Shown piece by piece: positions 18,059 to 43,034 of a DNA stretch of 64,000 nt. The notes beneath the pieces are model-generated. The model had not been told where the DNA came from, made no database searches, and worked only from the letters and a program-made list of their open reading frames with translations. Within the stretch, counting starts at the first letter, position 1. Each line of letters opens with the position of its first letter. Both the position numbers and the translations under genes were made by a program. Source of the DNA: Lamellibrachia satsuma (taxonomy: Eukaryota > Annelida > Polychaeta > Sabellida > Siboglinidae); assembly GCA_033239005.1 (NCBI GenBank), contig BSQZ01000015.1, forward strand, positions 8,381,001 through 8,445,000, in the 5' to 3' direction.

Positions 18059-18064
18059 CCTGTT

Positions 18065-19560
18065 AGTAGTATGTGTCTTTTTCAATTATAAAAAATGAGG
18101 AGCAGATTTGCTTCATTCTGATTGGTCGAAATTTGAAATGGAGCGTTCTGATTGGTCGTGCGCTTATTGCCGCCAGGGACGCCACGATATAATCCCCTAT
18201 TATCGCTCAAATGAGGAGCACTTTCTGATTGGTCGAGAGCAGTTTCACCACCAGGGGCGCCACGTGTCATCCCCTATTATTGCCCCTGAGGCACTGTTTT
18301 GCGGTAATATTGTCGCCAGGGAGCGCTACGGGTCAAGTGTGTCGACGGCTCTGATTGGTCGAGAGCAGTCACGTCACCCTTTTGCGGTCATACTGTTGGT
18401 GACCTCTCTATGGAGGCTGCCATCTTGTTTTGCTGCCATCTTGTTTTGTGATGATACGGTCACCAGGGGCGCTACGGGTCAAGGTCAAATGTGTCGACGG
18501 TTCTGATGGATCGAGAGCAGTCACGTGACTTATGACGTCACAGCTCTTCATTTATATATCACGTGACCTCTCTCTGGAGGATGCCATCCTGTTTTGTGCT
18601 GATACGATCGTCAAAGGGCGCTCGCGAGGTTTCAGGTGAACCTGGGTGATACGGTCACAAAGAGGCACTCTCCTTGGTGATACAGTCGTCAGAGAGGGGT
18701 TTCAAGTGAGCCCGGATGATACGGTCGCCAAGGGGCGTGGCGACTGTTCTCATGGGTTGAATGCATGCACGTGACCTGGTTTCTTGCGCACGCACAGCAT
18801 GCACACAGCCTTAGTGACCGTGTTGCGCTCGCGTCTGTTTCCGGTTGCGCGAGCGGGTGCTAATTCGCCTACTCCACACTTCCCAACCGTACAGTGTCTA
18901 CGATTTGTATATAACCATGGCCGAGTCGTTGCAGTCGATCATGTGGTATCCATAAGTTTTACGCGTGTTTGCTTATAGGCATAAAAAGCGAACGCGTATT
19001 TTGCAGTTCCCGTGTATTAGAATCACGTCCATTTACGGGCGAATGGTTGTTCTAACGCGTGTTTAGGAGAACGTTACGGTTACATAATGCTAGTTTTCTG
19101 AACCCTTCTGTATGAATTGAACCGGTTTCATGTAGTTTTTTCTTGTTTTCTGGAACGTTCGAACGACGTCATGGAATTTTCCACGCTCACGAAAAGAAAC
19201 ACGATCCCACATTTTCACCTTGCTACCAGACTGAAACCTAGCGGTCGAATGTTCGTGCATGCAGCGGGAAAAACGTAGCCGTGCATGTAAGCTATACGAC
19301 GCATATCGCATCATTGCATTATATCGAGAACTTTTCGACGTATGTCGTTTCGCGTCGACACCTACATATTGCCTATTTCACCACGAGTCTGCAAGAACAC
19401 CGCGAGGTCAAAAGGTCAAGGTCAACAAAAACCACCGTCGCTTTCTGGAACGTTCAAACGAAGTCATGGAATTTTCCATAATCAACGCGAAGTCAAAAGG
19501 TCAAAAGGTCAAGGTCAAAGCAGTTTTTCCATCGAAATATGTCTAGGCACATTGAAATTT
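18065..19560 (+). repeat. long arm of element A
   Basis: Contains repeated GATTGGTCGAGAGCAG motifs, blocks close to CACCACCAGGGGCGCCAC, E-box/CRE pairs such as CACGTGACTTATGACGTCA near 18520, and a segment (18990-19560) that reappears inverted at 29280-29640 in element C. Short frames inside it are not conserved. Confidence 0.75.
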
Positions 19561-19671
19561 CATACGTCTTGACGTTTCTCACATTTCTCACACACTTACT
19601 TCTATCTCATTTTGTCTATACTGCCAGGCTACAGGAAAAACCGCAGAAAAAGTGCATCGTCAGCAAACTTT

Positions 19672-19891
19672 CAGGTTAAACTGTAGGAGGTATGGGTAAA
19701 TTGTAGGAATTATGGGTAAACTGTAGGAATTATATATTAACTGTAGGAGTTATGGGTAAACTGTAGGAATTATGGGTAAACTGTAGGAGTTATGGGTAAC
19801 CTGTAGGAATTATGGGTAAACTGTAGGAGTTAGGGTAAACTGTAGGAATAATGGGTAAACAATAGGAGTTACGGGTAAACTGTAGGAGGTA
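19672..19891 (+). repeat. 20-bp minisatellite (AACTGTAGGAGTTATGGGT)
   Basis: About eleven copies of a 19-20 bp unit, mostly AACTGTAGGARTTATGGGT. The same unit occurs at 40288-40376 inside element B and inverted at 22481-22510 inside element D. Confidence 0.85.
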
Positions 19892-20110
19892 GATTAAGAG
19901 ACGAACACTGGTAATATTGACAATGTGAACATGTTGTGAAAGTCGTGACGGGTCCAAAGCATGCGATTAAGAGACGAATATTGGTAATATTGACAATGTG
20001 GACATGTTGTGAAAGCCGTGACGCACCCAAAGGGTGAGATTAAGAGACGAACATTGGTAATATTGAGAAAGCTTATGTTATGAAAGTTTGCAAGTTGGAA
20101 GTTTCCTTCA
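19892..20110 (+). repeat. 76-bp tandem repeat
   Basis: Three diverged copies of a unit starting GATTAAGAGACGAAYAYTGG and containing GGTAATATTGACAATGTG. Followed by the GAAAGTTTGCAAGTTGGAAG block that is also seen in element B. Confidence 0.7.
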
Positions 20111-20154
20111 CCGCACACACATGTTTTGAAAGTTTGTGTCATGAATTTTTTTGG

Positions 20155-21408
20155 AGGCATTGACTACCATGTGACATGCATGGAGACGTTGACCGTCATG
20201 TGACATGCATGGAGACATTGACCGTCATGTGATATGCATTGAGACATTTACCGCTGTGTGAAATGTATGAAGACATTTGACGCCATGTGACATGCATGGA
20301 GACATTTACCACTGTGTGATATGCGTGGATACATTGACCACAATGTGACATGCATGGAGACATTGACTGCTATGTGACATGTATGGAGACATTTACCGCT
20401 GTGTGATATGTATGGAGACGTTCACCACCATGTGATATGTGTGGAGACATTTACGTGGTATGCATGGATACATTGACTGCCATGTGACATGCATGGAGAC
20501 ATTGACTGTCATGTGACATGCATGGAGACATTGACCACCATGTGACATGCATGGAGACATTTACCGCTGTGTGATATGTATGGAGACATTCACCACCATG
20601 TGACATGTGTGGAGACATTTGGCACCATGTGACATGCATGGAGACATTGACCGTCATGTAACATGCATGGAGACATTTGACACCATGTGACATGCATGGA
20701 GACATTGACCACCATGTGATATGTATGGAGACATTTGACACCATGAAAGTTTGCAAGTTGAAACTTTGCTTCACCGCACACACATGTTTTGAAAGTTTGT
20801 GTCATGAAAATTTGTTTGGAGACATTGACTGCCATGTGACATGCATGGAGACATTTACCGCTGTGTGATATGTATGGAGACATTTGACACCATGCATATG
20901 ACACATTTACCACTGTGTGATATGCGTGGAAACATTGACCACAACGTGACATGCATGGAGACATTGACTGCTATGTGACATGTATGGAGACATTTACCGC
21001 TGTGTGATATGTATGGAGACGTTCACCACCATGTGATATGTGTGGAGACATTTACCCCTGTGTGATATGTATGGAGATATTTGACACCATGTGATATGCG
21101 TGTAGATATTGACCGCCATGTGACATGCATGGAGACATTTACCCCTGTGTGATATGTATGGAGACATTTGACACCATGTGATATGCGTGGAGACATTGAC
21201 CGTCATGTGACATGCATGGAGACATTTACCACTGTGTGATATGTATGCAGACATTGACCGCCATGTGGTATGCATGGAGACATTGACCGCCATGTGACAT
21301 ACATGGAGACATCGACTGCCATGTGACATGTATGGAGACATTCACCACCATGTGATATTTGTGGAGACATTTACCACTGTGTGATATGCGTGGAGACATT
21401 GAACACAA
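20155..21408 (+). repeat. 29-bp satellite array (element A)
   Basis: More than 40 units of the type CATGTGACATGCATGGAGAC ATTGACCGC (29 bp), with variants ATTTACCACTGTGTGATATG and ATTTGACAC. Because 29 is not a multiple of 3, any stop-free frame shows a 29-residue peptide repeat rich in His, Cys and Met; these frames are by-products. One interruption, at about 20745-20820, is the GAAAGTTTGCAAGTTG block. Confidence 0.9.
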
Positions 21409-21411
21409 TTT

Positions 21412-21560
21412 GAAGAAAACAAGACACTGTCATACACAACTTGAAAAAAACAAGACATTGTCACACACAACTTGAAGAAAGCAAGACATTGTCATACACA
21501 ACTTAAAGAAAACAAGACATTGGCATACACAACTTGAAGAAAACAAGACATTGTCATACA
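21412..21560 (+). repeat. 31-bp minisatellite (element A)
   Basis: Five copies of AACTTGAAGAAAACAAGACA TTGTCATACAC. The same unit, inverted, occurs at 28760-28975. Confidence 0.85.
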
Positions 21561-22210
21561 CTTAGTTAGTTACAGTTAGTCCTCTTCGTGCCCGGTGGCA
21601 CATAAGGCATCAACAAGACAGCGCCAAGACAATGGTAAATGTCTCCATACACAGTGGTCAATGTCTCCACGCATATCACATGACGACCGCCCGTGTTCCG
21701 TGGTGGCAGCGGCACGAAAACAGGTGTAACCCCAACCTGTTGTCGGTTGTATAACCCTAGATAGCCTGCATCGAGACAGTGCTGTTTGACAAACCTATCA
21801 TCACGTAGTTGTTGGCACGTAGATAGCCTGTATTGAAACGTTGTGTATGACAATGACACCAGATGATTGGAAGACAGGCACAATTATCAAGCTACCAAAG
21901 AAGGGCGACTTGGGGAACTATAACAACTGGCGGGGCATAACCCTGTTTTCAATGACATGCAAGATTTTCAGCCGCATAATCCTGAAGAGAATATCAGCAG
22001 CTACTGATACAATCCTCCCCCAGGAACAAGCCGGTTTTCAGAAGAGGAAAGTCATGCATCGACCACATTAGTAGTTATAGTGAGGAATGACCGATCAAAA
22101 GAGTCGCCCAGTAGGGAGGGTCACTGTGACTTCCGGTCGCAGAGCCTTCTGAGTACCGTGAGCGCCCCCTTGCGACTGGAGCTAACCCTAACCGTCTAGA
22201 GCGCCCTTTA

Positions 22211-22361
22211 ATGAATGATTTTAATTTTAATTTTAATTTTAATTTTAATTTTAATTTTAATTTTTATTTTTATTTTTATTTTTATTTTAATTCTAATTCT
22301 AATTTTAATTTTAATTTTAATTTTAATTTTAATTTTAATTTTAATTTTAATTTTAATTTTA
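22211..22361. repeat. TTTTAA hexamer array
   Basis: About 25 copies of TTTTAA with a patch of TTTTTA. Low-complexity Phe/Asn/Ile/Leu frames through it are not genes. Confidence 0.9.
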
Positions 22362-22706
22362 AGCCTCACAGCCTTCCGGGTAGCCCCAGCGCCCCTTGGC
22401 GGGACTCGTAACCCTAGAACGCCCCCTGGCGATTGAATTGAATTTTAATTTTAATTTTGAAAATAATGCGCTCTTGCACTTTACCCATAACTCCTACAGT
22501 TTACCCATAGAGCAACGAAAGGCGTACTTTCGACCCGGCCCGCTAGCGAAGTCGGCTTGATGTTTTTATCACTAGGCCGTTAGCAGCCGGCTAGCAAGCG
22601 TGTAGAAGTAGGCCACGCACATAAGATAACAGTGATCCAACGACCCAGCCTGGCTCGTGGTGTTTATCAGTAGACCGCTAGCAGCCGGCTAGCAGGCGTG
22701 AAGAAA

Positions 22707-22830
22707 ATAAAAATAAAAATAAAAAATTAAAATTAAAATTAAAATTAAAATTAAAATTAAAATTAAAATTAAAATTAAAATTAAAATTAAAATTAAAATT
22801 AAAATTAAAATAAAAATAAAAATAAAAATA

Positions 22831-22861
<31 letters not shown>

Positions 22862-23153
22862 AAAATTAAAATTAAAATTAAAATTAAAATTAAATTCAGT
22901 CACCATGGGGCGCTCTAGACGGTTACGGATAGGGTTACGGGTCCCGTCAGGGGGCGCTCGGGCTACCCAGAAGGATGTGAGGCTGCGCGCGCATGAATTT
23001 GAAATTAAAATTAAAATTAAATTTAAATTTAAAAAATTTTTAAATTTAAAATTAAAATTAAAATTAAAATTAAAATTAAAATTAAAATTAAAATTAAAAT
23101 TAAATTTAAAATTTAAATTAAAATATAAATTTAAATTAAATTTAAATTAAATT
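22707..23153. repeat. AAAATT / AAAAAT arrays
   Basis: Two blocks of AAAATT-type hexamers, with an AAAAAT run near 22808-22860, separated by a GC-rich segment at 22895-23000. They are complementary to the TTTTAA array, so single strands of this element could pair over hundreds of bases. Confidence 0.88.
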
Positions 23154-24251
23154 CAGTCGCCAGGGGGCGCTCTAGACGGTTACGGATAGGGTTACGGGTC
23201 CCGCCAGGGGGCGCTCGGGCTATCCAAAAGGGTGTGAGGCTGCGCGCGCATGAATTTGGAATTAAAATGAAAATTAAGATTAAATTTAAATTGAAAAATT
23301 AAAATTAAAATTAAAATCAGTCGCCAGGGGGCGCTCTAGACGGTTAGGGTTTGCTCCAGTCGCCAGGGGGCGCTCACGGTACCCAGAAGGCTCTGCGACC
23401 GGAAGTCACAGTGACCTTCCCCATTGGGCGACTCTTTTGATCGGTCATTCCTGCACTATAACTACTCACATTTTCACGCTACGGCAGATTTTGGAACAAA
23501 GCACGGAATGGACCAGTACTATCTATATTGCCTTCATTGACTTTGAAAAGGCCTTTGGCAGCCTTCACAGAGAATCCCTGTGGAGAATAATACGTCACTA
23601 CGGGATCCCACAGAAGATGGTAAATGTGATCAAGATTCTTTACACAGACGTCCAGTGTCAAGTCGCCTGTAACAGTTACATGTCAGACAGCTTTAGCGTA
23701 AAATCCGGAGTAAAACAGGGATGCATTCTCTCACCATTTCTTTTCACCCTTGCCATCGACTGGCTGATGATAGAAATCACCAAAAATGGAAACAGAGGCA
23801 TCAGATGGACACTTACCTCGATCTTGGAAGACCTGGACTATGCAGATGACATTGGACTGCTGTCTAACAGGCACAAGGACATGCAAGAAAAGATGGACAA
23901 ACTCACAAGAACAGCACCACAGATTGGGTTAAAGCTCAACACAGCAAAAACCAAACTGATGAGGATCAACAACAAGACAGATAACCCCATCACCATAAAC
24001 AACATAAACAACAGTGATGCTTTGGAAGACGTTCAGGACTTTGCATAAGCAAAATCACAACAGATGGAGACTCTGCAAAATATGCCACGGCTAGGATCAG
24101 AAAGGCAAGTCAGACCTTCGCTATGCTGAAGCCCATCTGGAAATGCGCACGACCAATCAGATCGCTCCATTTCAAATTTCGACCAATCAGAATGAAGTAA
24201 ATCTGCTCCTCATTTTTGATGATTGAGAAAGACACATATACTACTCCTGTT

Positions 24252-25004
24252 CCGGGAATGTGATTTGAAATTGTGTGCTTATACAAACTGGTAGTTGAAT
24301 TGGAACACAATTTATAAAAATAACCCTTTCCCATGGAGCACTTCTGAGAGATGTTTTACAGATACTATATTCCATAGATAATGATTTGGACACACCGCTT
24401 TTAGCTATACAACATTAATAATACAATAATAATAAAGTTTATTTCAACAACATCAACAGTTAACGTACAAACACAATAAATTATTGAATTTTAAACATCA
24501 ATAGTACGAGTTAAAAAGTTGAAAAATGGCAAGAAGAAGGGTAATGCTTATGCTGCTTGCCCTATCACTTATAAGTGATACTAAATAATACAATTATCAT
24601 ACAAGTGTAAGTGTTTTTTTTAAAAGAATAGTACATGAATTTTTTTATCATAATTGGGTTACTCATTGGTTACATAGCTGTGCAATATTTGAACAGTATA
24701 GTTCTGTTATATACTCATTTTGGTATTTAAAAGACGATGTACAAACAAATCAGATCTTTATTTTAGAATTCGACACAAAGACAGACGTCGTCCCCCACTA
24801 GCCAGGAATGCACCACTGCTTATATCTTTCTAAGCATTATGCATACATTACAATCTCCTCCTCACCAGTTTTTAAAGTCCATAGTCAGTCCAGGATAGAA
24901 CTTCTACCTAAATAATTAAAAACTAAGGCCCACGGTAGACTGTCCTGTCCTTTGTGATACAGGGGATTATTATGCCCCACAGCTACTGTGTAGTGCTACT
25001 CTGA
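24252..25004. other. unannotated AT-rich stretch
   Basis: No gene recognised. The part next to 25004 could contain the 3' end of the broken gypsy element on the minus strand, but I cannot define an LTR. Confidence 0.35.
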
Positions 25005-25517
25005 CTACAGAGTTAATCTGTCCGGAGCTTTCCTGAGTCTCTCCGATGTGCGAACAGAAGTAGGGGTCCCATCTGTATATGGCACTGTAGGAGATGGTTG
25101 CGTTACATGTGTTTTGTTACTCATAGCTCCATCAGGTATTGGAGTCACGTCTCTTGTCATTTCATTATCTCCAGACTCGGGTCGTTCGATACCTGCTTCC
25201 GGTGCAGCAACAGCCTCTTGCTCCACTGGGTTGTCTAACGCCTCTGTATGACGTCGGCGCATGTGATCACTATGACGTCTCAAGTAGCGACCATCAGCTG
25301 TCTCTGATATCATGACGTTGTTCTTCTGTTCTCGCAGAACAGCTCGAATCCATTGTTCATCCTTCAACTTCACCAATCCCCTCTTCACCAGCTGCACCGC
25401 CCTTTCCGCGAAACCGTTACAAGATGGATGATATGCTGTTGACTTGATGTGTTGGCTGTTGTTTCTCTTGACTGTATCAACGCCTCCTGGTGACTGGAGC
25501 TTTGTTAGTTTATCCAT
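25005..25517 (-). pseudogene. Ty3/gypsy integrase C-terminal fragment
   Basis: Encodes HIKSTAYHPSCNGFAERAVQ followed by a Lys-rich helix (VKRGLVKLKD), which is the end of an rve integrase core with the third catalytic residue, Glu, in GFAERAVQ. After that come a short basic segment (GRYLRRHSDHMRRRH) and an acidic, Pro/Thr-rich tail to the stop. The core is cut upstream where the 22-bp tandem repeat begins. The first and second catalytic Asp are absent. No LTR was identified. Confidence 0.8.
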
Positions 25518-25615
25518 AATTTTGTTAGTTTGTCCACCATTTTGTTAGTTTTGTCCTTCATTTTGTTAGTTCGTCCACCATTTTGTTAGTTTGTCCATCA
25601 TTTTGTTAGTGGCGA
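25505..25615 (-). repeat. 22-bp tandem repeat
   Basis: Five copies of TTTTGTTAGTTTGTCCACCA-type units. It abuts and replaces the integrase sequence at 25517. Confidence 0.8.
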
Positions 25616-26160
25616 GGCAACTTCCGGTTACGATGTCTGATTACGCATGAGCTCCTCTGTTTAGTTGATTTTTGGCTGTTTACAGTGGAGAAAGGGCGTT
25701 TTTCATCCTAATCATATTATTCTAGTAGCATACTGATTATCACACCGTGATGTTTAGATGTAAATTCTGAGTTGATGCGATATAAATCCAATCTTAAACT
25801 ATACATCGACCCATTCGAAATTTCCCGCCAAAATTTTCATTCTTCCGGTTAGGTGCACAATGTAAACAACACAGATAATTAAGGCTAGACAAAATTTAGT
25901 AATAACGTACACTCCCAACCTGAGTCATCTATATGCTAACAGGCAATTTCTACCAAGGCGTCTTTTACCCAGAGTAGCCCTGGGACAGAAGTACGTTTCT
26001 CGTCGAGCACAGCACACTGTCACTAGTCACAACGCCTTGGAAATCCCTGCACGTACTCTTAGTAAAACAGCACGCATATGGTAAGTGTTAAATAGAACTT
26101 GATTTTTTTTTCTGGAATTACGGAAATTAGTGAAAATTACCAACACAGTGGTCCAAAACA
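25616..26160. other. possible 5' UTR of the CR1-like LINE
   Basis: Unique-looking sequence between the tandem repeat and the open frame of the LINE. Contains CTTCCGGTTA near 25622. No gene seen. Confidence 0.35.
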
Positions 26161-26748
26161 AGATACTGGCGAAATGTAGCAATTTCTAGCGCTCCAATCA
26201 CAAAACTAAAAAATAAGGGGACACGGAGAGGTAGCAAAAACTCTGAATCGGGAAGCGATGTTAGAGAAGCTTGGAAATGCGAAGACTGCAAGAAAATCTT
26301 TAAAAGTGAGAAAGACAGAATGCTCGAGTGCGAGTACTGCGGAAACCGATACTGCATTAAATGCTTGAAATTTAAACCTGGCGAATATGAGACAATGGGG
26401 AAACCCGGATGCATGTGGTGTTGCTTAAAATGCAAACCAAAAATAAAAAAAAATATTCTCAATGAGAAAGTTATCGAAGAGAGATGCAAGATGTATTTCG
26501 AAACTATGAACACGAGATTTGAGGCCACAGAGAAAAAACTGGATGCTAAATGCGATAGTAAAGAAGTAAAAGAAATCGCAATGCAGGAAATGGATGCATT
26601 ACATACATGCAGACCAAATGATGATGAAAGCAGGAACCTACTAACCACCCAAAATAGTGGAATTGTCGTAGAAGAAACAGTAAGAGAAATCAATGAAAAA
26701 AAAATAGGGAAACAAATTGTCTTATATTCAATGAGGAAGAGAGGATGA
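26161..26748 (+). pseudogene. CR1-like ORF1 with PHD-type zinc finger
   Basis: The frame is open from at least 26161. After a short basic leader comes WKCEDCKKIF, LECEYCGNRYCIKCLKF, MWCCLKC: three Cys pairs plus two aromatic/Cys steps, as in PHD/FYVE-like fingers found in ORF1 of CR1 elements. The remaining part is charged and probably coiled coil (residues about 105-150, Glu/Lys rich). It stops at 26746-26748. The downstream sequence around 26750-27000 looks like more of the same ORF in other frames. Confidence 0.7.
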
Positions 26749-27117
26749 GAATATATATGGAGTTTGTTGAAGGGTTGTGTAATGAGGTGTGCAATCTGAA
26801 CCTAGATGTAAAAGATGAGATAATCAAAGTTATCAGGCTAGGTAAAAAAAACAGACTGAGATACGGGTGATACTGAACAAAAACCCAGAACTCTTAAGGT
26901 AGTAATGAAAGACACTAACAAAAAAGAAAGAGAGGAATGAAGGAAACTTTGTCAGGACAAAAGAGATAAATGATGAGGGGAAATGGTTGTACAGGGTGAG
27001 ATGCTCACCATGGGCCAGAAAAATTTGAAGATTCAAACCTCGAAGGGACGAGGAGTAAGACAAGAAAGTTCGTCTAACCAGAAAAACACTGTAAATACAA
27101 ATTATACACATAAACAG

Positions 27118-28757
27118 TTAAAATGTTTCTACACCAATGCTAATAGTCTAATCAATAAATTTACTGAGTTCAAAGTTTGAGTCGAATCACATAAGTGTAT
27201 TGTGACTGCAAACACTGAGATTAAACCGAAAAACCAGAAATTTTTATTAAACACAGCTGAACTGAGTGACTATGATTTATACCATAACATCGATAAGCAA
27301 GGACGAGGTGTTTGTATATTTATCCACAAAACACTAAACGCAAAACCCTTCGTATCTTTAGGAACCAACTTTCAAGAATCGATATGGGTTGAGATAAAAT
27401 TAAACAAAAAAAACCACTTTTCTGATAGGATGTGTATATAAAAGCCCGGGCAGCTCTGGCACCAATAATGAACAATTAAATGAACTGATTAGTGAGGTAA
27501 TGCGCTATAAACACTATCATCTTCTCTCGCTTGGAGATTTTAACTACCCCAACATAGACTGGCAAAACTAGTACACACTCTCAGAGAATACTAATAGCCC
27601 AGGCACTAAATTTAAAAAAGGAATAATTTCCTCTTCCAACATGTCACACTCCCAACAAGGGGGCGATTAGGAAATAAATTGAACATTCTTGATTTAGTTT
27701 TCACCAATGAAAAAGATATAATAGATGATATAGTGTATGAAAGCCCACTTGGTAAGAGTGATCACTCTGTCCTCATCATTACATTTAGGTGCTATGCAGA
27801 AATAATAAGCCATACACGACTTAAATATTATTACGACCAAGGGGATTATAATAGTATGAAGACGAAACTAGACCACACAGACTGGGGCGAGGTACTTAGC
27901 ACGAGCACATAAAGGAAAAGTACCCCTAAGCAAGGAATCAGTAAAGAAAATTAAGAAAAACACACTTTATGGAAACGTTATAAGGAGACAAAAGAACGAA
28001 AATACTATACTGAATATTGTAGGGCTAGAAATCAAGTCCGTAAATTAACGAGGAGGATACAGAAGGAGTTTGAGATGAAGCTAGCAACAGAATCTAAGAC
28101 AAACCCAAAAGTAGTATGGAAATATATGAACTCCAAAACCAAGAATCGAGAAGGTGTTTCATATCTGAACACAGACCCTAAAGATCCTAAATCTAGACTC
28201 ACAGATTCTGATAGTAAAAAGGCAGATGTCTTAGGAAAATATCCCTCATATTCCACCAGTGAAATTAAGGCACAACATGGAAGAATTGACTATTGATGAG
28301 GAAATTATTAAAAAAAGACTTGATAACCTTAATGTGTGTAAATCGGTAGGGCCAGATGGTGTTCATCCTAGGTTGTTGAAAGAGCTATCTAATCATCTAT
28401 GTAAACCACTAGCTAGGCTATTTAATAATTCACTGGCTGTGGGTGAACTACCAAAGGAATGGAAACAGCCATATTGAAGAAGGGTTATCGAAAAAACGCA
28501 GGAAATTATAGACCAGTCAGCTTAACAAGTATACTATGTAAATGTATGGAACAATGTGTCAAATATCATATTGTCAATCATATGATTAGGAATAAATTAT
28601 TTATTACGCAACAATTTGGTTTTATTAAAGGTCGATCTACGGTACTCCAATTATTAAATGTTATTGATTCATGGACCAAAGCTTTAGATAGAGGGAATCT
28701 GTAGACGTTGCATATTTGGAATTCATGAAAGCATTTGACACCCTCCCTCACAAAAGA
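27118..28757 (+). pseudogene. CR1-like endonuclease and RT, broken
   Basis: Endonuclease pieces: LKCFYTNANSLINKF at 27118, RGVCIFIHKTL near 27305, LSLGDFNYPNIDW near 27530 and KSDHSVLIITF near 27750. RT pieces: CKSVGPDGVHPRLLKELSNH (28340), AGNYRPVSLTSI (28500), QFGFIKGRSTVLQLL (28610). Stops at 27178, 27439, 27570, 27910, 28294, 28475 and 28702 mark the breaks. The palm with FADD is missing. Confidence 0.8.
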
Positions 28758-28972
28758 TTGTTTTCTTCAGGTTGTGTGTGACAGTGTCTTGTTTTCTTCA
28801 AGTTGTGTGTGACAGTGTCTTGTTGTCTGCAGTTTGTGTGTGACAATGTCTTGTTTTCTGCAGTTTGTGTGTGACAGTGTCTTTTTTTCTTCAAGTTGTG
28901 TGTGACAGTGTCTTGTTGTCTGCAATTTGTGTGTGACAGTGTCTTGTTTTCTTCAAGTTGTGTGTGACAGAG
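28758..28972 (-). repeat. 31-bp minisatellite (element C)
   Basis: Seven copies of TTGTGTGTGACAGTGTCTTG TTTTCTTCAAG, the inverse of the unit at 21412-21560. Starts right after the broken RT of the CR1-like LINE. Confidence 0.85.
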
Positions 28973-29270
28973 GCTAAGATGGTGAGACACAGCAAGGCAG
29001 GCTAGAGATAGTGTCATAAAGTACAGAAATATATGCTAAGATGCTGAGAAACAGCAATGCAGGCTGGATACAGTGTCATAAAATAAATAAATGTATACTG
29101 AGATGGTGAGAAACAGCAAGGCATGGTTGAGACATTGTCATAAAATAAATAAATGTATGCTGAGATGGTGAGAAACAGCAAGGCAGGGTTGAGACAGTGT
29201 TATAAACTATAGAAATGTATTCTGAGCCGGTGAGAAACAGCAAGGTAGGCTGGAGACAGTGCTATAAAGT
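28973..29270. repeat. 62-bp tandem repeat
   Basis: Five diverged copies of a unit with GAGATGGTGAGAAACAGCAA, GGCAGGNTGGAGACAGTGT and CATAAA. The period, about 62, is twice that of the neighbouring 31-bp repeat. Confidence 0.75.
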
Positions 29271-30744
29271 ACATATATATTTTTTGACCTTGACCTTTAG
29301 ACCTTTTAACCTCGCAGTGTTTTTGCAGACTCGTGGTGAAATAGGCGGTATATAGGTGTCGACGCGAAACGACATACGTCGAAAAGTTCTCGATATAATG
29401 CAATGATGCGATATGTGTCGCATAGCTTACATGCACGGCTAAGTTATTCCCGCGGCATGAACGAACATTCGTCCGCTAGGTTTTAGTCTGGTAGCAGGGT
29501 GAAAATGTGGGACAGTGTTTCTTTTCGTGAGCGTGGAAAATTCCATGACGTCGTTCGAACGTTTCAGAAAATTAGAAAAAAACTACATGAAACCGGTTCA
29601 ATTCATACAGAAGGGTTCGGAAAAGTAGCATTATGTAACCGTAACATCCTCCTAAACACGCGTTAGAACAACCATTCGCCTGTAAGTGGACGTGATTCTA
29701 ATACACGGGAACTGCAAAATACGCGTTCGCTTTTTATGCCTATAAGCAAACACGCGTAGAACTTAATGATACCACATGATCGATTGCAACGACTCGGCCA
29801 TGGTTATATACAAATCGTCGACACTGTACGGTTGGGAGATGCGGAGTAGGTTAATTAGGAGCCGCTCGCGCAACCGGAAACAGAAGCGAGCGCAACACGG
29901 TCACTAAGGCTGTGTGCATGCTGTGCGTGCGCAAGAAACCAGGTCACGTGCATGCATTCAACCCGTGAGAACAGTCGCCACGCCCCTTAGCGACCGTATC
30001 ATCCGGACTCACCTGAAACCCCTCTCTGACGACTGTATCACCCAGGAGAGCGCCTCTTGTTGACCGCATCACCCAGGTTCGCCTGAAACCTCGCGAGCGT
30101 CCTCTGACGATTGCATCAGCGCAAAACAAGATGGCAGCCTCCATAGAGAAGTCACGTGATATGAAAATGAGGAGGTGTGGCGTCATAGGTCACGTGACGG
30201 CTCTCGACCAATCAGAACCGTCGACACAATTGACTCGTAGCGCCCCTTGGCGGTGAAACTGCTCTCGACCAATCAAATGCTTACCCAAAATCTGCATATT
30301 TGAACGATAAATAGGGGGTTACCCCGTGGCGCCCCCTGATGGTGGGACTGCTCTCGACCAATCAGAGCCGTCGACACAAGTCACGGGACTGCTCACAATT
30401 GACCCGTAGCGCCTCTGGCGGTGAAACTGCTCTCAACCAATCAGATATGTAGACACAAATGACTCGTATCGCCCCCTGGCGGTGAAACTGCTCTCGACCA
30501 ATCAAGTGCTTACCCAAAATCTGCTCATTTGAGGCATAATAGGGGATTACCCCGTGGCGCCCCCTGGTGGTGAAATGCTCTCGACCAATCAGAACGCTCC
30601 ATTTCTAATTTCGACCAATCAGAAGCTTGAAGATTGAAAGGTGCACACATGCTACTCCGGATGTTTACTCACCGTATCTGAAGGCTGCTAGTGACACTGG
30701 CTTCTCGGCTGAAACAGTTGTGGTCATATTAGGTCTGCTCGTTT

Positions 30745-32270: not shown

Positions 32271-32282
32271 GCCTTGCTAGTA

Positions 32283-33450: not shown

Positions 33451-33454
33451 GGGA

Positions 33455-33625
33455 CAATTAATTAATTTGGACATTTAATTAAAATAATTACAATTAAATC
33501 AGACATTCTCTAATTAACTGAAATTAACCTGACACATTTCATTTAAATTAAACTAACCTCCCAATTTCTTCAATTAGATTAAATTACGAATAATTTTTTA
33601 TTCAATTAACAATTAAATTATGTGT
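33455..33625. repeat. AATTAAATT-rich low-complexity tract
   Basis: Irregular runs of AATTAA. No reading frame of interest. Confidence 0.7.
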
Positions 33626-34948
33626 TGGTAGAAATGTTTTTTGCAAGTTTAAGCATTTGATGCAAGTCGTCATTGAAATAATAACGCTATTTGTTATTAC
33701 TTACACATTTCTGAAAGCACAAGTAGGTTTTACGTGTTACTGTCACGATAGTGGTGAGATTCAACTACAGCGTTCATATACATTGGAGGAATTACTTTGC
33801 TTGTTAGATATGAGGTACATTACTTAATGCAATCAATTCAGCATTTTTTATGTATAACATACATTTGGTGGGGGTCGGTCACAGGCCTGAGGGGGTGACC
33901 TAGTGGCGAGTGACCCCCACCAATACTATGTGAATTGTAAATAAGTCAGTATTGGTACAGATAATACTGGTAGGTAGATGCTAGATATAATTTAATAATT
34001 ATGTGTAAATACATTTTGGGGGCCGGCGTGCTTGCTGTGATTATGCAATGTATCTCGTTTTGATGATGACTGCTTGCCTAATTTCCGGCTTATTAATTAA
34101 TAAATTAAATGTCATTATTGTTATGTAGCGTAGTGTTTATGTCACTCCTTGGACTGGTTGCTAGGAGAGAGTGTCCTTAAAAGACTGCAACCTTGTAGAC
34201 ACTATAAAGGCTGGCAGTAGCCAGATTAATGATGTGTCATGGAGGAGCATTGGACTATGGACGTCTTTGAATATCTGAATAATTAATAATAGTAATACAC
34301 GTTTTAAAATCACATTTCGCTTCAGTGAGCTCATTTTAACACAAAACCAAGAGGAGTGGTGTATTTTTAATGGTATGATTAGGCTTAGTTTTTTTCAAAA
34401 TGGCCTGTCGACCGTATTTCAAGACTGTCTGGTTGGTATTATGGCAGTAGCCCCTGCTAAATATTTCATTTAAGCAAGACTTATGCTAGAAGTTACCTGT
34501 CTACGTCATCCGTTTAAGCCACAGACTTATGCTATATTTATCCAAGGAAAGCAAGCCCCATGAGCTTAATTCACTAAAGTTCGTGTAAAAGCAAAAGTGT
34601 AGGCTCGCTCATGTAGGAATTCATTTTATTTTTGTTGTTGTTGCAGCATGGCACCATAAAAGGCACAATGCGCAACCTGTCAAAACGCTCATGGCATTTG
34701 GCATAACAAAGAAACCAAAAAGGAGCCCCAAAAGAAGGTAATAAATTGCCTAGCACTGCAAAACCACTGATACAAATTAGGCATTTGTACATAAACCCCG
34801 AAAGTTGAAACGGGTATAAACCACTATATTAATTATACTAAATATTATAGTAAACACAGTAAGCAAGATGTCATTTTACTTTCAGAAAAACATTGGGAGA
34901 AAATACAATATTGTCGGTTATTCTTAAATACAAAATCAAAACATGGAT
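33626..34948. other. unannotated stretch with one hairpin
   Basis: Only a strong hairpin at about 33866-33923 stands out (see findings). A minus-strand frame at 34574-34792 is unrecognised. Confidence 0.35.
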
Positions 34949-35121
34949 CTACTTGTATTGTCTTGGTGTGCAATTCAAGTTGGTATACCTTTTTTCAGAC
35001 ATGCAGATACTGGAAGGGATTTCAGCAGAAGAACATGAACTGTAACCGTTCTGGATGCAGCCATTTTTTACCGTTTGTTGCCCAGGTAATGCAGCGGACA
35101 TCAAGCACGCAGTCCAGGCTG

Positions 35122-35466
35122 CAGAGGTAGGCGATTCCCCAATCAAGACTGCAGAAGTCGTCGATTCCCCAATCAAGACTGCAGAGGTCATTGATTCCCC
35201 AATCAAGACTGCAGAGGTCATTGATTCCCAAATCAAGACTGCAGAGGTCATTGATTCCCCAATCAATACTGCAGAGGTCGTCGATTCCCCAATCAAGACA
35301 GCAGAAGTCGTTGATTCCCCAATCAAGACTGCAGAGGTCGTCGATTCCCTAATCAAGACTGCAGAGGTCCTTGATTCATCCAATCAAGACTGCAGAGGTC
35401 GTTGATTCCCCAATCAAGACTGCAGAGGTCGTTGATTCCCAATCAAGACTGCCGAGGTCCTCGATT
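35122..35466 (+). repeat. 30-bp minisatellite (CTGCAG-containing)
   Basis: About eleven units of GTCGTTGATTCCCCAATCAA GACTGCAGAG. With a unit of 30 the frame is kept, giving the ten-residue repeat TAEVVDSPIK on the plus strand and TSAVLIGEST on the minus strand. Two late units differ in length (31 and 29 bases), which breaks the frame near 35380-35440. A plus-strand frame opens at 35055 and ends at 35405. I lean to non-coding, but see findings. Confidence 0.85.
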
Positions 35467-35469
35467 ATG

Positions 35470-36798
35470 TTATTTATACACAGCTGCTGTAAACAGAGTT
35501 TCTAGTATCTAGTTGTTTCCAGCATCCGTTCTATTAACTGACTAGTCTTTATAATTATATTGTGGTTAGAATGTTATGGTCTTTTGTGGCCTTTTTAGAA
35601 CTTTATCGAAGCCGACCCCAGTGGTTATTTAACGTCCCAAATTGAGACGGGACCGACATTAACGTGATCTCCGAGTTACGAGGGATACAGTCCATAATGT
35701 TGAGAGCCAGGTTTATACACCAAATGTACCGTGTCCAGTTTGCGTCTTGAATTCAGAACTTAGGCATGAAAGGTGGATGTGCTAATCACTACATTTACAT
35801 TTTTGGGTTTTGTAATATAAGTACACAACGTCAGTTAGTTATGTCATACTTTTCCTCTTTCTATGGTGTATGTATTTCTATGATGCGTTTTAATTTACAT
35901 GGCGCAAAGGTGTCAGGAAACATTTTAATCTACCGGTTTGCACTCACTGTCGTTATATGGTACTACTACTACTTTTAGCGGAATGTCTCCCGATTCAAAT
36001 TCAGATCATGAATCGAATGGTTCGCTTTATACAGAGTAGTTTAAAATGCAACAACAGTTTGGATAGGCTCTCTTGAGAGGGCAATCTAGCACTTCGGGGT
36101 ATTGGTTCATATATGTCTAAAAGTTTCAGTTACACCTTGTCTCAGTTCAAACTTGATGCCACGACTTTCTGTGATATGAAACCTAGCTACTTTTATTATA
36201 TAATTCAGAACAACTATCAGAAGGGGCTGGATGAGAAACTATTCACCACAGTTTCACAGCAAAGGATGTGCTGAATAATATATAGAATGCGTGTAGCACT
36301 TTTTTAATCAAAGATGTGTTAGTCTCATTGTGTGCAAAGATACTGAATTGTACACTTTATCATAAGAATAAATATATATTTACTGTTACTGCACAACCGT
36401 GCCTCTAGTTTGCAATAATGCCGATACCGAGTTAACACGATTACGTGTTGTTTTAGCAATTTTAGCATACTCGTTTTTTTTATTAAACATTTGCATTACT
36501 ATAGTTGTTTTAGTCAATGTTGCAATAAATGGCACATAAAACTTGTTTAATATTGTCTTTTCGGTTGGACATTTTCAGACACCGCATTTTCTTCATTGGA
36601 ATAAGCCTACTTACAGGTGTAAATGAAACAAAATCCGCTGAGTTTTGCTAAAACTCTAGACTCAAACGTAGTTACACCTCGTCTACTGTAAATTTGACAT
36701 TCAAAGTTATACTTATGAAACGAATACAAGAAAATGCATAGCACTACTTTATTACTATTTTCAGCAAACCCGTATTAAAGCGGGACACGGCCGAAGGT
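35470..36798. other. unannotated stretch
   Basis: No gene, array or TIR recognised. The right edge holds the start of the CATATT duplication of element B. Confidence 0.4.
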
Positions 36799-36804
36799 CA
36801 TATT

Positions 36805-38195
36805 AGTAGTATGTTGTTGTTTTTGACACATAAAATTTGGGAAGATTTTGGGTAAGCTTCTGATTGGTCGAAATTTGAAATGGAGCGTTCTGATTGGTCG
36901 TGCGCTTATTGCCAGAGGGCGCCACGTGAAATCCCCTATTATCGCAAAAAAATTAGCAGATTTTGGGCAAGCATCTTATTGGTCGACAGCAGTTTCACCA
37001 CCAGGGGGCGCCATCTATAATCCTCTATTATCGCCCATGAGGCACTGTTTTGCGGTAATATTGTCGCCAGGGGCGCTACGGGTCAAGTGCGTCGACGGCT
37101 CTGATTGATCGAGAGCAGTTTCACCACCAGGGGGCGCCACATATCATCCCCTATTATCGCCCCTGAGGCATTGTTTTGCGATAATATTGTCGCCAGGGGC
37201 GCTACGGGTCAAGTGTGTCGACGGTTCTGATGGGTCGAGAGCCATCACGTGACCTATGACGTCACAGTTCCTCATTTACATATCACGTGACCTCTCTATG
37301 GAGGTCGCCATCTTGTTTGTTGCCATGTTGTTTTGCGATGATACGGTCACCAGGAGGCGCTGCTACAACGTCACAGTTCCTCATTTGCTTATCACGTGAC
37401 CTCTCTATGGAGGCTGCCATTTTGTTTTGGTGCCACGTTGTTTTGCGATGATACGGTCACCAGGGGCGCTACGAGTCAAGGTCAAATGTGTCGACGGTTC
37501 TGATGGGTCGAGAGCATTCACGTGATTTATGACGAACAGCTTTTCTTTTGTATATCACGTGACCTCTCTATTGAGGCTGCCATCTTGTTTTGCTGCCATG
37601 TTGTTTTGCATTGATACGATTACCAGACGGCACTGCGGGGCAAGATCGAAGGTCAAAGGTTACCGACCTTTTCCGTTGATACAATTGCCAGTTAGGGTTA
37701 GGGTAAGTAACCCTAATGGAAAATTCGAGAAAAAACTTAAAAATTGTAGGAATAATTATCAGTTAGAGTTAGTAACCCTAATTAAAGGTCAAAGGTCGCC
37801 GACCTTTTGTACTTATACGATTGTCAGTTAGGGTTAGGGTTAGTAACCCTAATTCTGACGTCCGTAGTGAACCCTAGTACGAACCCTGACCCTAACCCTA
37901 AAAGAACATGCAGGAAGAAAAGTTGTGATGACAGTGGCGGTTCAGTTTACTACTGACGATTATGGCGCGTTTCGAGACGTGTCTGGGCACAGAACCGGTT
38001 TGAACCGGTTCAAACCGATTTGATCCGGTTTTTATTGCATCATTGCATTATATAGAGAACTTTTCGACATATGTCGTTTCGCGTCGACACCTACATATCT
38101 GCTATTTCACCACGAGTCTGCAAGAGCACCGCGAGATCAAAAGGTCAAGGTCAACAATGCATAAACACTGCCGCACTTGCGAGTTGTGTATTTAC
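36805..38195 (+). repeat. left arm of element B
   Basis: Inverted match to 41825-43028. Holds two exact CCACCAGGGGGCGCC motifs (36998-37012 and 37124-37138), repeated ATCACGTGACCTCTCTATGG with nearby GACGTCA, telomere-like hairpins at 37691-37716, 37751-37780 and 37825-37852, and AACCGGTT palindromes at about 37992-38030. Confidence 0.8.
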
Positions 38196-38199
38196 CACG

Positions 38200-39530
38200 G
38201 TGTGATATGCGTGGAGACATTGACCACAATGTGACATGCATGGAGACATTGACTGCTATGTGACATGTATGGAGACATTTTTTGGAAGTCTGCAAGTTGG
38301 AAGTTTGTGCTTTGGAAGTTTGCAAATTGGAAGTTCTCCACTCCACTCCACTCCACTTTGAAAGTTTACGTTATGAAAGTTTGCAAGTTGAAAGTTTGCT
38401 TCACCGCACACACATGTTTTGAAAGTTTGTGTCATGACAATTTGTTTGGAGACATTGACTGTCATGTGACATGCGTGTAGACATTGACCGTCATGTGACA
38501 TGCATGGAGATATTTACCACTGTGTGACATGCATGGAGACATTTACCGCTGTGTGATATGCTTGGAGACTTTTGACACCATGTGACATATATGGAGACAT
38601 TTACCACTGTGTGATATGGGTGGAGACATTGACAACAATGTGACATGCATGGAGACATTGACTGCTATGTGACATGTATGGAGACATTTACCGCTCTGTG
38701 ATATGTATGGACACGTTCACCACCATGTGATATGTGTGGAGACATTTACCCCTGTGTGATATGTATGGAGACATTTGATACCATGTGGTATGCATGGAGA
38801 CATTGACCGCCATGTGACATGCATAGAGACATTGACTGTCATGTGACATGCATGGAGACATTGACCGCCATGTGACATGCATGGAGACATTTACCGCTGT
38901 GTGATATGTATGGAGACATTTGACACCATGTGACATGCATGGATATATTGACCGTCATGTAACATGCATGGAGACATTTGACACCATTTGACATGCATGG
39001 AGACAATGACCACTATGTGATATGTATGGAGACATTTGACACCATATGGTATGCATGAAGACATTGACTGCCGTGTGTTTGAAGTCTGCAAGTTGGAAGT
39101 TTGAGCTTTGGAAGTTTGCAAATTAGAAGTTCTCCAATCCACTCCACTCCACTCCACTTTGAAAGTTTATGTTATGAAAATTTGCAAGTTGAAAGTTTGC
39201 TTCACCGCACACACATGTTTTGAAAGGTTGTGTTATGAAAATTTGTTTGGAGACATTGACTGTCATGTGACATGTATGGAGACATTGACCACCATGTGAT
39301 ATGTATGGAGACATTTGACACCATGTGACATGCATGGAGACATTTACCACTGTGTGATATGCGTGGAGACATTAACCACAACGTGACATGCATGGAGACA
39401 TTGACCGCCATGTGACATGCATGGAGACATTGACCGCTGTGTGATATGTATGGAGACATTTGACACCATGTGACATGCATGGAGACATTTACCAATGTGT
39501 GAGACATTGACTACCATGTGACATGCATGG
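38200..39530 (+). repeat. 29-bp satellite array (element B, left)
   Basis: Same unit as in element A, interrupted by two blocks (38283-38450 and 39065-39245) of GGAAGTTTGCAAGTTGGAAG-type sequence with a CCACTCCACTCCACT run. Confidence 0.9.
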
Positions 39531-40290
39531 AAGTTTGCAACATGAAGTTTGAAAGTTGAATGTTTGGAAGTTTATGTTTTGAAAGCTTGGGTTATGAAAA
39601 TTTGTTAGTTGGAAGTTTTACATATCACTTACAACTTACATAATTCAACTTCAACAAACTTGAAAATTGGAAAACAAGATTCAACTTACAAACATCAAAA
39701 TTGCAAAGTTTCATATCATAAACTTTCATGTTACAAACGTTCTACTTACACACTTCCAACTTGTAAATTTTCAACTTAAAAACTTCTAACTTTCAATCTT
39801 CATGTTACAATCTTTCAATTAAAAAATTTTCAAAACACAAACTTTCATATCATAAACTTTCATTTTTGAAATAAACTTCTTTGTAAGTTGGGAAGTTTGT
39901 GATGTAAAAAGTTTATGTTTTGAAAGTTTATGTTATGAAAATTTGTAAGTTGGAAGTTTGTAAGTTGAAAGTTTGTGATGTGAAACTTGGTGATATGAAA
40001 AGTTTATATTTGGAAGTTCATGTTTTGAAAGTTTGTGTTTTGAAAATGTGTTAGTTGAAAGATTGTAACATGAAGATTGAAAGTTGGAAGTTTTTTAAGT
40101 TGAAAATTTACAAGTTGGAAGTGTGTAAGTAGAAAGTTTGTAACTTTAACTTTAAGTTTTAAAGTTTATGATATGAAAGTTTGTGTTATGAAACTTTACA
40201 ATTTTTTTAAGTTTGTAAGTTGAATCTTTCAAGTTGGAAGTTTGTGTGAAAGTTTGTGATGGGAAACTTGGTGATATGAAAAATTAAAAC
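39531..40290. repeat. central GAAAGTTTG repeat region of element B
   Basis: Irregular copies of GAAAGTTTGTRAGTTG and, in 39610-39870, of their inverse CAACTTACAAACTTTC. Midpoint of the palindrome. No ORF. Confidence 0.7.
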
Positions 40291-40459
40291 CTGTAGGAAT
40301 TATGGGTAAACTGTAGGAGTTATGGGTAACCTGTAGGAATGATGGGTAAACTCTAGGAGTTATGGATAAACTCCCGCGAAATGTATCTAGGCACATTGAA
40401 ATTTCCTACGTGCGCTCCCACTCGTCTTGTTCATGGAATTTTTTTATAAACACCGCATA

Positions 40460-41828
40460 TCACATGTCTACACGCATATCACATGGTGTCAAATGTCTCC
40501 ATACATATCACACATGGGTAAATGTCTCCACACATATCACATGGTGGTTAACGTCTCCATACGTATCACACAGTGGTAAATTTCTCCATACATGTCACAT
40601 AGCAATCAATGTCTCCATGCATGTCACATTGTGGTCAATGTCTCCACGCATATCACACAATGGTAAATGTCTACATGCATGCCACATGGTGTCAAATGTC
40701 TCCATACATATCACACAGCGGTAAATGTCCCCATGCATGTCACATGGCAGTCAATGTCTCCATGCACGTCACATGGCAGTCAATGTCTCCATGCATGTCA
40801 TATGGCAGTCAATGTCTCCATGCATGTCACATGGTTGTGAACGTGTCCATACATATCACACAGTGGTAAATGTCTCCATACATGTCACATGGTGTCAAAT
40901 GTCTCCATACATATCACACAGCGGTAAATGTCTCCATGTATGTCACATGGCGGTCAATTTCTCCATGCATGTCACATGGTAGTCAATGTATTCATGCATG
41001 TCATATGGTAGTCAATGTCTCCATGCATACCATATGTTGTCACATGATGTCTCCATACATATCACACATGGGTAAATGTCTCCACACATATCACATGGTG
41101 GTTAACGTCTCCATACGTATCACACAGTGGTAAATTTCTCCATACATGTCACATAGCAGTCAATGTCTCCATGCATGTCACATTGTGGTCAATGTCTCCA
41201 CGCATATCACACAATGGTAAATGTCTACATGCATGCCACATGGTGTCAAATGTCTCCATACATATCACACAGCGGTAAATGTCCCCATGCATGTCACATG
41301 GCAGTCAATGTCTCCATGCACGTCACATGGCAGTCAATGTCTCCATGCATGTCATATGGCAGTCAATGTCTCCATGCATGTTACATGGCGGTCAATGTCT
41401 CCATGCATGTCACATGGTTGTGAACGTGTCCATACATATCACACAGTGGTAAATGTCTCCATACATGTCACATGGTGTCAAATGTCTCCATACATATCAC
41501 ACAGCGGTAAATGTCTCCATGTATGTCACATGGCGGTCAATTTCTCCATGCATGTCACATGGTAGTCAATGTATTCATGCATGTCACATGGTAGTCAATG
41601 TCTCCATGCATACCATATGTTGTCAAATGTCGCCATACATGTTACATGGTGGTCAATATCTCCATGCATGTCACATGGTGTCAAATGTCTCCACACATAT
41701 CACATGGTGGTGGACGTCTCCATACATATCACACAGCGGTAAATGTCTCCATACATGTCACATAGCAGTCAATGTCTCCATGCATGTCACATTGTGGTCA
41801 ATGTCTCCACGCATATCACACAGTGGTA
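40460..41828 (-). repeat. 29-bp satellite array (element B, right, inverted)
   Basis: The unit appears as its inverse (GTCTCCATGCATGTCACATG). A segment starting near 40480 is repeated almost unchanged from near 41035, giving a higher-order period of about 554 bp; the second copy has one extra 29-bp unit. Confidence 0.9.
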
Positions 41829-43028
41829 AATACACAACTCGCAGGTGCGGCAGTGTTTATGCATTGTTGACCTTGACCTTTTGATCTCGCGGTGCTCTTG
41901 AAGACTCGTGGTGAGGCGATATGTAGGTGTCGACGCGAAACGACATATGTCGAAAAGTTCTCTATATAATGCAATGATGCAATATGCGTCGTATAGCTTA
42001 CATGCACGGCTACGTTTTTCATGCTGCATGCACGAACATTCGTCCGCTAAGTTTCAGTCTACTAGCAGGGTGTTTTTTTCCGTGAGCGTGGAAAATTACA
42101 TGACGTCGTTCGAACGTTCCAGAAAGGAAGAAAAAACTACATGAAACCGGTTCAAACAGGTTTGAACCCAGACACGTCTCGAAAAGCGCGCCATAATCGT
42201 CAGTAGTAAACCGAACCGCCACTATCATCACAACCGTTCTTCCTGCATGTTCTTTTATGGTTAGGGTCAGGGTTCGTATTAGTTCACTACGGACGTCAGA
42301 ATTAGGGTTACTAACCCTAACCCTAACTGGCAATCGTATAAGTACAAAAGGTCGGTGACCTTTGACCTTTCATTAGGGTTACTAACCCTAACTGACAATT
42401 ATTCCTACAGTTTACCAGTTTTTTATTGAATTTTCCATTAGGGTTACTAACCCTAACCCTAACTGGCAATTGTATCAACGCAAAAGGTCGGTAACCTTTG
42501 ACCTTCGACCTTGCCCCGCAGTGCCGTCTGGTAATCGTGTCAATGAAAACAACATGGCAGCAAAACAACATGGCAGCCTCTATAGAGAGGTCACGTGATA
42601 TACAAATGAAGAGCTGTGACGTCATAAATCACGTGACTGCTCTCGACGGCGACCTCCATAGAGGTCACGTGATATGCAAATGAGGACCTGTGACGTCATA
42701 GGTCATGTGATGGCTCTCGACCCATCAGAACCGTCGACACACTTGACCCGTAGCGCCCCTGGCGACAATATTACCGCAAAACAATGCAAAACAAAGGGGC
42801 GATAATAGGGGATGATACGTGGCGCCCCTGGTGGTGAAACTACTCTCGACCAATCAGATGCTTACCCAAAATCTGCTCATTTGAGAGATAATAGGGGATT
42901 TCACGTGGGGCCCTCTGGCGGCAATAAGCGCACGACCAATCAGAACGCTCCATTTCAAATTTCGACCAATCAGAAGCTTACCCAAAATCTGCCCAAATTT
43001 TATGTTTCAAAAACACCAACATACTACT
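41825..43028 (-). repeat. right arm of element B
   Basis: Inverse of the left arm: the GTCGACGCGAAACGACATAT block near 41930, telomere-like motifs at 42260-42465, CGACCAATCAG repeats at 42845-42980 and the terminal 15 bases. Some segments present on the left (for example the duplicated E-box block) are shortened here. Confidence 0.8.
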
Positions 43029-43034
43029 CATATT

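Follow-up and report, generated by a model that had tools for sequence, protein, structure and literature searches.

Gene-less, satellite-filled Polinton/Maverick-type elements and their gene-bearing relatives in Lamellibrachia satsuma

A stretch of 64,000 nucleotides from the annelid Lamellibrachia satsuma (contig BSQZ01000015.1, positions 8,381,001 to 8,445,000 of the forward strand, "the window") contains four elements, A, B, C, and D, with Polinton/Maverick-type ends and without Polinton genes. With a probability of about 0.85, A, B, and C derive from a Polinton/Maverick family as non-autonomous, "hollow" elements, and D belongs to a second such family, all of them being copied and inserted in trans by gene-bearing relatives. 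The ends, the target duplications, a target preference, relatives with Polinton-type genes, the composition of the arms, and the similarity of the tips were directly visible in the genome sequence.

Ends, duplications, and build of the elements

A scan of the window for AGTAG...CTACT pairs not more than 20 kb apart and with identical 6-bp flanks yielded exactly three pairs, which were A, B, and D. In 60 dinucleotide shuffles of the window per pattern, the mean number of such pairs was 0.13 (maximum 2) with AGTAG and 0 with AGTAGT. All three elements read AGTAGT...ACTACT, which agrees with the first of the two end types of Polintons/Mavericks, (AGT)2...(ACT)2 and (AG)3...(CT)3. An earlier note, made from the letters of the window alone, had reported the ends of A and B with perfect CCTGTT and CATATT duplications, and these were found again upon re-reading at 18065-24245 and 36805-43028, with the shuffles near 0. 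The same note had described a three-member family of A, B, and C. Element C indeed shares the right end, which reads AGTAGCAT inward from 30656, and the scan of the window gave no matching left end for it; element D, at 22070-23466 inside A, had been missed. The features are as follows.

18065-24245, + strand: element A, gene-less Polinton-type, 6181 bp, ends AGTAGTATG...TATACTACT, perfect CCTGTT duplication
18059-18064, no strand: left target duplication CCTGTT of A
24246-24251, no strand: right target duplication CCTGTT of A
18065-18163, + strand: outer inverted repeat of A, left copy, 99 bp, 94% identical to the right copy
24145-24245, - strand: outer inverted repeat of A, right copy, the sole remainder of the right arm
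19120-19466, + strand: segment of A matching the region between the terminal repeat and the polymerase-like gene of the gene-bearing copies C85 and C44, 91-96%
19674-21561, + strand: satellite block of A, tandem repeats of 20, 73, 29, and 31 bp
Sub-blocks of this satellite block: 20 bp at 19674-19891; 73 bp at 19892-20069; 29 bp at 20152-21413; 31 bp at 21394-21561
22070-23466, no strand: element D, 1.4 kb, inverted arms, ends AGTAGTTATAGTG, second Polinton-type family, inside a long interspersed nuclear element (LINE) remnant within A
22064-22069, no strand: left target duplication CACATT of D
23467-23472, no strand: right target duplication CACATT of D
23482-23964, + strand: LINE reverse-transcriptase remnant in A, beside the short right arm (Pfam RVT_1, E value 1.5e-21, frame 23290-24045)
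28758-30656, - strand: element C, a single arm of the A/B family, end at 30656, flank CCGGAT, adjoining a LINE remnant
Repeats of C: 31 bp at 28758-28969; 62-bp period at 28973-29275
36805-43028, + strand: element B, gene-less palindromic Polinton-type, 6224 bp, ends AGTAGTATG...CATACTACT, perfect CATATT duplication
36799-36804, no strand: left target duplication CATATT of B
43029-43034, no strand: right target duplication CATATT of B
37739-38174, + strand: polymerase-side ("P") segment, left arm of B
41847-42413, - strand: polymerase-side ("P") segment, right arm of B, inverted
38190-39531, + strand: 29-bp satellite, left arm of B
40464-41831, - strand: 29-bp satellite, right arm of B, inverted

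The palindrome of B is interrupted: its arms match in inverted orientation over stretches of 312, 504, 248, and about 631 bp in each arm. The inverted repeat of A is confined to the outer 99 bp (94%), and its right half is composed of the LINE reverse-transcriptase remnant plus D. The description of the elements as giant hairpins fits B and several copies elsewhere in the genome but not A. The lengths of A, B, and D, 6.2, 6.2, and 1.4 kb, are below the length of autonomous Polintons, which is approximately 15 to 20 kb or greater, and C is incomplete. No Polinton gene was found by tblastn in the window, and so none in A, B, C, or D, at an E value of ≤1e-3 with the gene pieces of a relative as queries, as the earlier note had stated from the letters.

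Relatives in the same genome and their target sites

Relatives were sought in the window's own genome, which comprises 735 Mb on 279 contigs, with the window on contig C15. The best 40 of 347 candidates were scored for the tip of A (query of 201 bp), the best 40 of 317 for that of B (200 bp), and the best 40 of 393 for that of D (121 bp), a choice biased toward close relatives. Sixty-eight ends were located; 15 of them were set aside (12 as the second end of a pair, two of three ends sharing the flank GCAGTGCAGGGG, and one duplicate flank on C56), and D was added, resulting in 54 insertions. These were counted as independent, with different flanks and positions on many contigs, with one possible exception: C56:2905527 is part of an inverted duplicate of another element in the count. 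The three ends with the same 12-bp flank GCAGTGCAGGGG, C143:175342, C131:56124, and C218:64680, represent either a duplicated locus or an insertion into a repeat.

A script found both ends of 13 A/B-type pairs; C40 and C117 were inspected by eye, and no second end was located for C20. The duplication of 6 bp, which the earlier note had given for the window, was kept in the copies examined: it was perfect in 11 of the 13 pairs and had one mismatch in the other two (C21, C56), and lengths of 4, 5, 7, 8, or 9 bp never fitted better. The pairs checked by eye were also flanked by 6-bp duplications, GTTGTA for C40 and GTCAGA for C117. Among ten D-type pairs, seven were perfect at 6 bp, one had a single mismatch, one had two, and one was unmatched. 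In the latter case, two D-type ends 31 kb apart (C21:5516577-5547612) enclose the 13.7-kb A-type copy C21, with differing 6-bp flanks, and they may belong to two insertions.

The target of the A/B family is not random. The central dinucleotide of the duplication was pyrimidine-purine (YR) in 40 of the 54 insertions, D included, compared to a background of 28% in the nearby flanks (p 2e-12). Position 2 was A in 31 and position 5 was T in 32 of the 54, which gives the palindromic consensus NAYRTN with a YR center.

The ends of these insertions are common to the gene-bearing copies C85 (15.3 kb) and C44 (13.6 kb), the tips of which are 89 to 91% identical to those of the window family over 200 bp. 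Longer relatives with the same ends had been proposed as a check of the Polinton assignment, and these two, among the copies examined, carry an integrase together with Polinton-type genes. The gene order is polymerase-like, ATPase-like, integrase, capsid-like, and protease-like, with several frames broken; the ATPase-like and protease-like frames were named by reading of the frames only. The integrase of C85 is Pfam rve (E value 9e-13). On the basis of its homologues, the polymerase-like gene is assigned as such from sequence, PF03175 (the PolB domain) being present in 83 of the 120 listed homologues of the polymerase-like piece. The identity of the capsid-like protein is settled by the predicted fold of a close homologue, P0121 (89% identical; model from 30 sequences, mean predicted local distance difference test score 77.8). 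The top match of this model among solved structures is the Sputnik capsid (E value 2.6e-16, template modeling score 0.63), followed by the capsids of Paramecium bursaria chlorella virus 1 (PBCV-1) and of iridoviruses, and the mavirus capsid is at rank 33. The nearest named relatives of the capsid-like protein are Lamellibrachia satsuma proteins with up to 93% identity, those of Ridgeia piscesae being lower. A sequence search of solved structures with the polymerase-like and capsid pieces revealed nothing credible, and a PHROGs search with nine C85 frames yielded no more than transposase families in the case of the integrase and weak matches in that of one polymerase-like piece. Tips common to elements with rve integrase, capsid-like, and polymerase-like genes thus bear out the relatedness to Polintons/Mavericks. 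These genes are missing from the window, whereas C85 and C44, whose ends are the same, have them; A, B, C, and D are therefore classed as non-autonomous derivatives and not as Polintons proper, the status that the earlier note had considered likely.

Polinton integrases appear from sequence to be abundant in this genome, because 2108 first-look candidates were obtained, 148 of which were scored (78 to 100% identical), 124 of the 148 being without a stop in the matched part. Most of the scored integrases are 78 to 83% identical to the C85 query, with open frames, often of 414 or 392 amino acids, and near-identical scores. This cluster suggests that another Polinton family has expanded in a recent burst; D-type ends are found near some such integrases (C145, C104, C21:8996133).

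Arms, tips, and terminal repeats of the hollow elements

Twelve hollow elements were available in whole or in part: A, B, C, C12, C166, C56, C6, C40, C43, C33, C44h, and C111. With D included, the gene-less elements are 1.4 to 6.2 kb long in the window, and they reach 11 kb elsewhere. None of the 12 gave a match to Polinton genes, and all contained at least one of six satellites (20, 29, 62, 73, 31, and 15 bp). None of the 12 had the minisatellite that gene-bearing copies have next to the protease-like frame, on its far side. The protease-side ends of six integrase-bearing copies were retrieved. Five of them, C85, C44, C15, C110, and C117, contain the protease-like frame and the minisatellite and none of the six satellites; in the sixth, C135, a piece of the capsid gene runs directly into the terminal repeat, without protease and without minisatellite.

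The terminal repeat is shared by both sides and cannot discriminate a left from a right end. Seven of the 12 hollow elements (B, C12, C166, C56, C6, C40, and C43) have the P segment, the stretch between the terminal repeat and the polymerase-like gene, in both arms, and so has C21. In C85, C44, and C20 it is located on the polymerase side only, save about 120 to 130 bp that C85 and C20 also have at the opposite end. The protease side of C15, C110, and C117 likewise finishes with a P-like stretch of this kind, which belongs to the terminal repeat in C85. Because the P segment is in both arms of the longer hollow elements but on the polymerase side only in C85, C44, and C20, the former look like symmetric copies of the polymerase-side end, "left-left." That both arms are often polymerase-side arms is an addition to the earlier reading of the window. 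C12 is the most regular case, with 10.7 kb, 4.9-kb arms at 96.6% identity, and a center of about 270 bp. The terminal inverted repeats are stretches of 0.3 to 4.9 kb in B and the longer copies, and are short, about 99 bp, in A and about 180 to 250 bp in C44h, C111, and C33.

In most cases, the two tips of one element resemble each other more than those of other elements. An alignment of 170 bp covered 14 elements for which both tips were available, the protease-side tip of C20 being excluded. The tips of one element were mutually nearest by identity in 13 of 14, the exception being A with its right arm cut short. Identity was 90.6 to 100% within elements versus a mean of 80% between elements, in gene-bearing and hollow elements alike, and in a FastTree tree of the same alignment, an element's own tips were sisters in 10 of 14. 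This pattern is taken to mean that an element acquires matching ends around the time of its insertion, as would follow if one end served as template for the other while the element is copied; gene conversion in the inserted copy would give like tips as well. The P-segment arms are sisters in C12, C166, C6, and C56. Over whole arms, the excess of identity within an element is clear in C12, slight in C166, C6, and C40, and absent in C56. Likeness of the whole arms as proof that the whole palindrome is re-made in each round was rejected, the evidence being too weak.

Nine terminal repeats (left of A, both of B, that of C, both of C85, that of C44, and one each of C12 and C166) were compared with 100 shuffles; these repeats are related, so the following counts are not independent. 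They contained 47 TCACGTGAC sites versus 0.09 expected, 40 CCAAT-boxes versus 1.5, 12 cyclic AMP response elements (CRE) versus 0.16, 7 CTCF-core-like motifs versus 0, 12 YY1-like motifs versus 0.03, and 11 octamers versus 0.4. The TATA pattern was not clearly enriched in the nine repeats (4 versus 1.3, shuffle maximum 4). A single arm of C166 has 11 TCACGTGAC sites in about 1 kb. The window outside A, B, and C contains 0 TCACGTGAC, 0 CTCF-core, 4 CCAAT-box, 3 CRE, 1 YY1-like, and 4 octamer sites. The factor names and consensus patterns (E-box, CCAAT, CRE, CTCF-like, YY1-like) are those which we take to apply to these motifs. Adenovirus ends carry host-factor sites used in replication, and the terminal repeats are read here as putative landing platforms for host factors.

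Pieces of LINE reverse transcriptase repeatedly adjoin Polinton or hollow sequence, at window positions 23482-24145 (A) and 28546-28763 (C) and near protease-side ends; this may indicate capture or an insertion hot spot. The window also contains LINE-type reverse-transcriptase remnants at 1308-2222 and 44999-45784 (Pfam RVT_1) and two Gypsy-type retrotransposon coding regions at 10833-14252 (- strand) and 53372-57241 (+ strand). Reverse transcriptase and RNase H were identified by Pfam in both Gypsy-type regions and an integrase domain in the first; the remainder was assigned by reading. A 30-bp tandem repeat of 11.6 copies at 35119-35466 lies to the left of B, outside the described elements.

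Origin of the hollow elements and comparison with known systems

The hollow elements have kept the ends on which the Polinton enzymes would act but have none of the genes, and the gene-bearing relatives in the same genome would supply the enzymes in trans. A protein-primed family-B polymerase may copy the hollow elements as linear episomes, and the retrovirus-type integrase may insert both ends at a 6-bp staggered cut for which a YR center is preferred (NAYRTN in the A/B family). The left-left form could arise when the polymerase is primed by protein at one end and the displaced strand folds back, or by a template switch. Such molecules would then gain satellites and spread as lineages of their own.

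Several observations weigh against this explanation. Neither mobilization nor an episome was observed, so that mobilization in trans, episomal copying, and the snap-back origin are deduced from the sequences. Five of the 12 hollow elements did not show the P segment in both arms: it is on one side only in A, C33, and C, with just one arm of C seen, and C44h and C111 have short P pieces on one side. Satellites and protease-side repeats occur together in C20 and C21, which contain polymerase-like and protease-like pieces and gave no integrase or capsid match. In the FastTree tree, the two tips fail to pair as sisters in A, C33, C43, and C111; judged by best identity, the P segments of C21 and of one C40 arm have a closer match than their own partner; and the arms of C56 are 84% identical to each other versus 86% to an arm of C166. 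Of the D-type pairs other than D itself, nine have no more than two mismatches; five of these have a YR center, and the bias is not shown for the D-type family. Concerning the genes, Pfam (E value ≤0.01, ten frames of C85 pieces) shows no PolB, capsid, or protease domain and names only the integrase and the reverse transcriptase of a LINE piece, one sub-threshold match being disregarded; the PF03175 profile gave one weak match across the genome.

The main rival to a snap-back origin is an ordinary internal deletion, in which a gene-bearing copy with long terminal repeats and satellites, similar to C21, lost its middle. Such an event is possible at somewhat less than even odds: C21 and C20 hold genes together with satellites, and C21 minus its middle would yield a P-satellite-P palindrome, a further point against the preferred explanation. 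C21, however, already has an inverted satellite center and a P segment on the protease side, and the latter is not found in the five ends that keep the protease gene, save for the approximately 130 bp of terminal repeat. C21 thus resembles a product of recombination with a hollow element more than it does an ancestor. A more far-reaching version of the snap-back origin is that hollow Polintons are heritable defective left-left genomes, inserted into the germline by the parent's integrase, stuffed with satellites in their lineages, competing for the parent's polymerase and integrase, and possibly dampening the parent like defective interfering genomes; this version is tentative and rather unlikely.

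Long inverted arms of tandem repeats without genes resemble foldback elements, and the window elements could be foldback elements (FB/TU/Galileo-like) or miniature inverted-repeat transposable elements (MITEs) of another transposase with Polinton-like ends by chance. This is very improbable, given that identity to the gene-bearing C85 and C44 is 89 to 91% over whole tips of 200 bp, far beyond the short motif, and that the duplications are 6 bp versus the 7 to 9 bp of foldback and P-type elements. Satellite arrays or assembly artifacts from palindromic reads would fit the C56 locus, which lies within a larger inverted duplication of 97% identity and is possibly misassembled, but the copies are spread across many contigs with different flanks, and 11 of 13 pairs have their own perfect 6-bp duplication, which leaves hardly any room for such an origin. 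At C56:2899000-2938900 the hollow element and its flank are part of this duplication (97% over about 7 kb, mostly flank), which is either real or an assembly artifact.

Among known systems, symmetric left-left defective adenovirus genomes, in which one genome end is inverted and duplicated, are copied by a protein-primed PolB. The longer hollow elements may share with them the inverted duplication of one end, but the hollow elements are chromosomal, with target duplications, satellites, and families. Foldback, Mutator-like (MULE), and P-type elements give target duplications of 7 to 11 bp. Foldback/TU/Galileo elements and MITEs are likewise gene-less or gene-poor with long inverted arms and tandem repeats, but differ in duplication lengths and transposases. 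The Tlr elements of Tetrahymena, relatives of Mavericks, also have tandem repeats within their inverted repeats but carry genes, and to our knowledge there is no left-left, gene-less form of them.

According to the available part of PMC8097293, vertebrate Mavericks have an end motif that includes (AGT)2//(ACT)2 and 6-bp duplications. The elements here agree in these ends, the 6-bp duplications, the terminal inverted repeats, and in having relatives with Polinton-type genes. They differ in that A, B, C, and D are gene-less, shorter, and filled with satellites, the longer ones with apparently left-left arms. With Mavirus and endogenous mavirus-like elements they share terminal inverted repeats, and their gene-bearing relatives share a distantly similar capsid fold and the retrovirus-type integrase, which an excerpt of PMC12220804 names for Mavirus-like virophages. 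The endogenous mavirus-like elements are described, in the accessible portion of PMC8547959, as without sequence-specific integration and mostly with 3- to 5-bp duplications, 5 to 6 bp being given for mavirus and Polintons; the palindromic NAYRTN preference and the 6-bp duplication found here are different. Ginger and related integrase transposons were rejected as a candidate on account of their duplication length of 4 to 5 bp (PMC2836005, available part).

Searches of plasmid records in distant mode with the left arm of B gave no match at the DNA level, and viral contigs gave no exact match to a 21-base piece of the arm. In the open-access literature searched by phrase, 5.39 million papers with most subscription papers outside, no non-autonomous or derived Polinton/Maverick was named, nor did the literature searched yield a gene-less form that is palindromic, left-left, and filled with satellites and that has copy lineages of its own. 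The Polinton family is known, and gene-less Polintons appear to be little described.

The motif-dense terminal repeats suggest how the elements recruit host factors or act as promoters. The left-left structure, if general, would tie a transposon family to the defective genomes of protein-primed viruses and would leave a record of Polinton copying within the genome.

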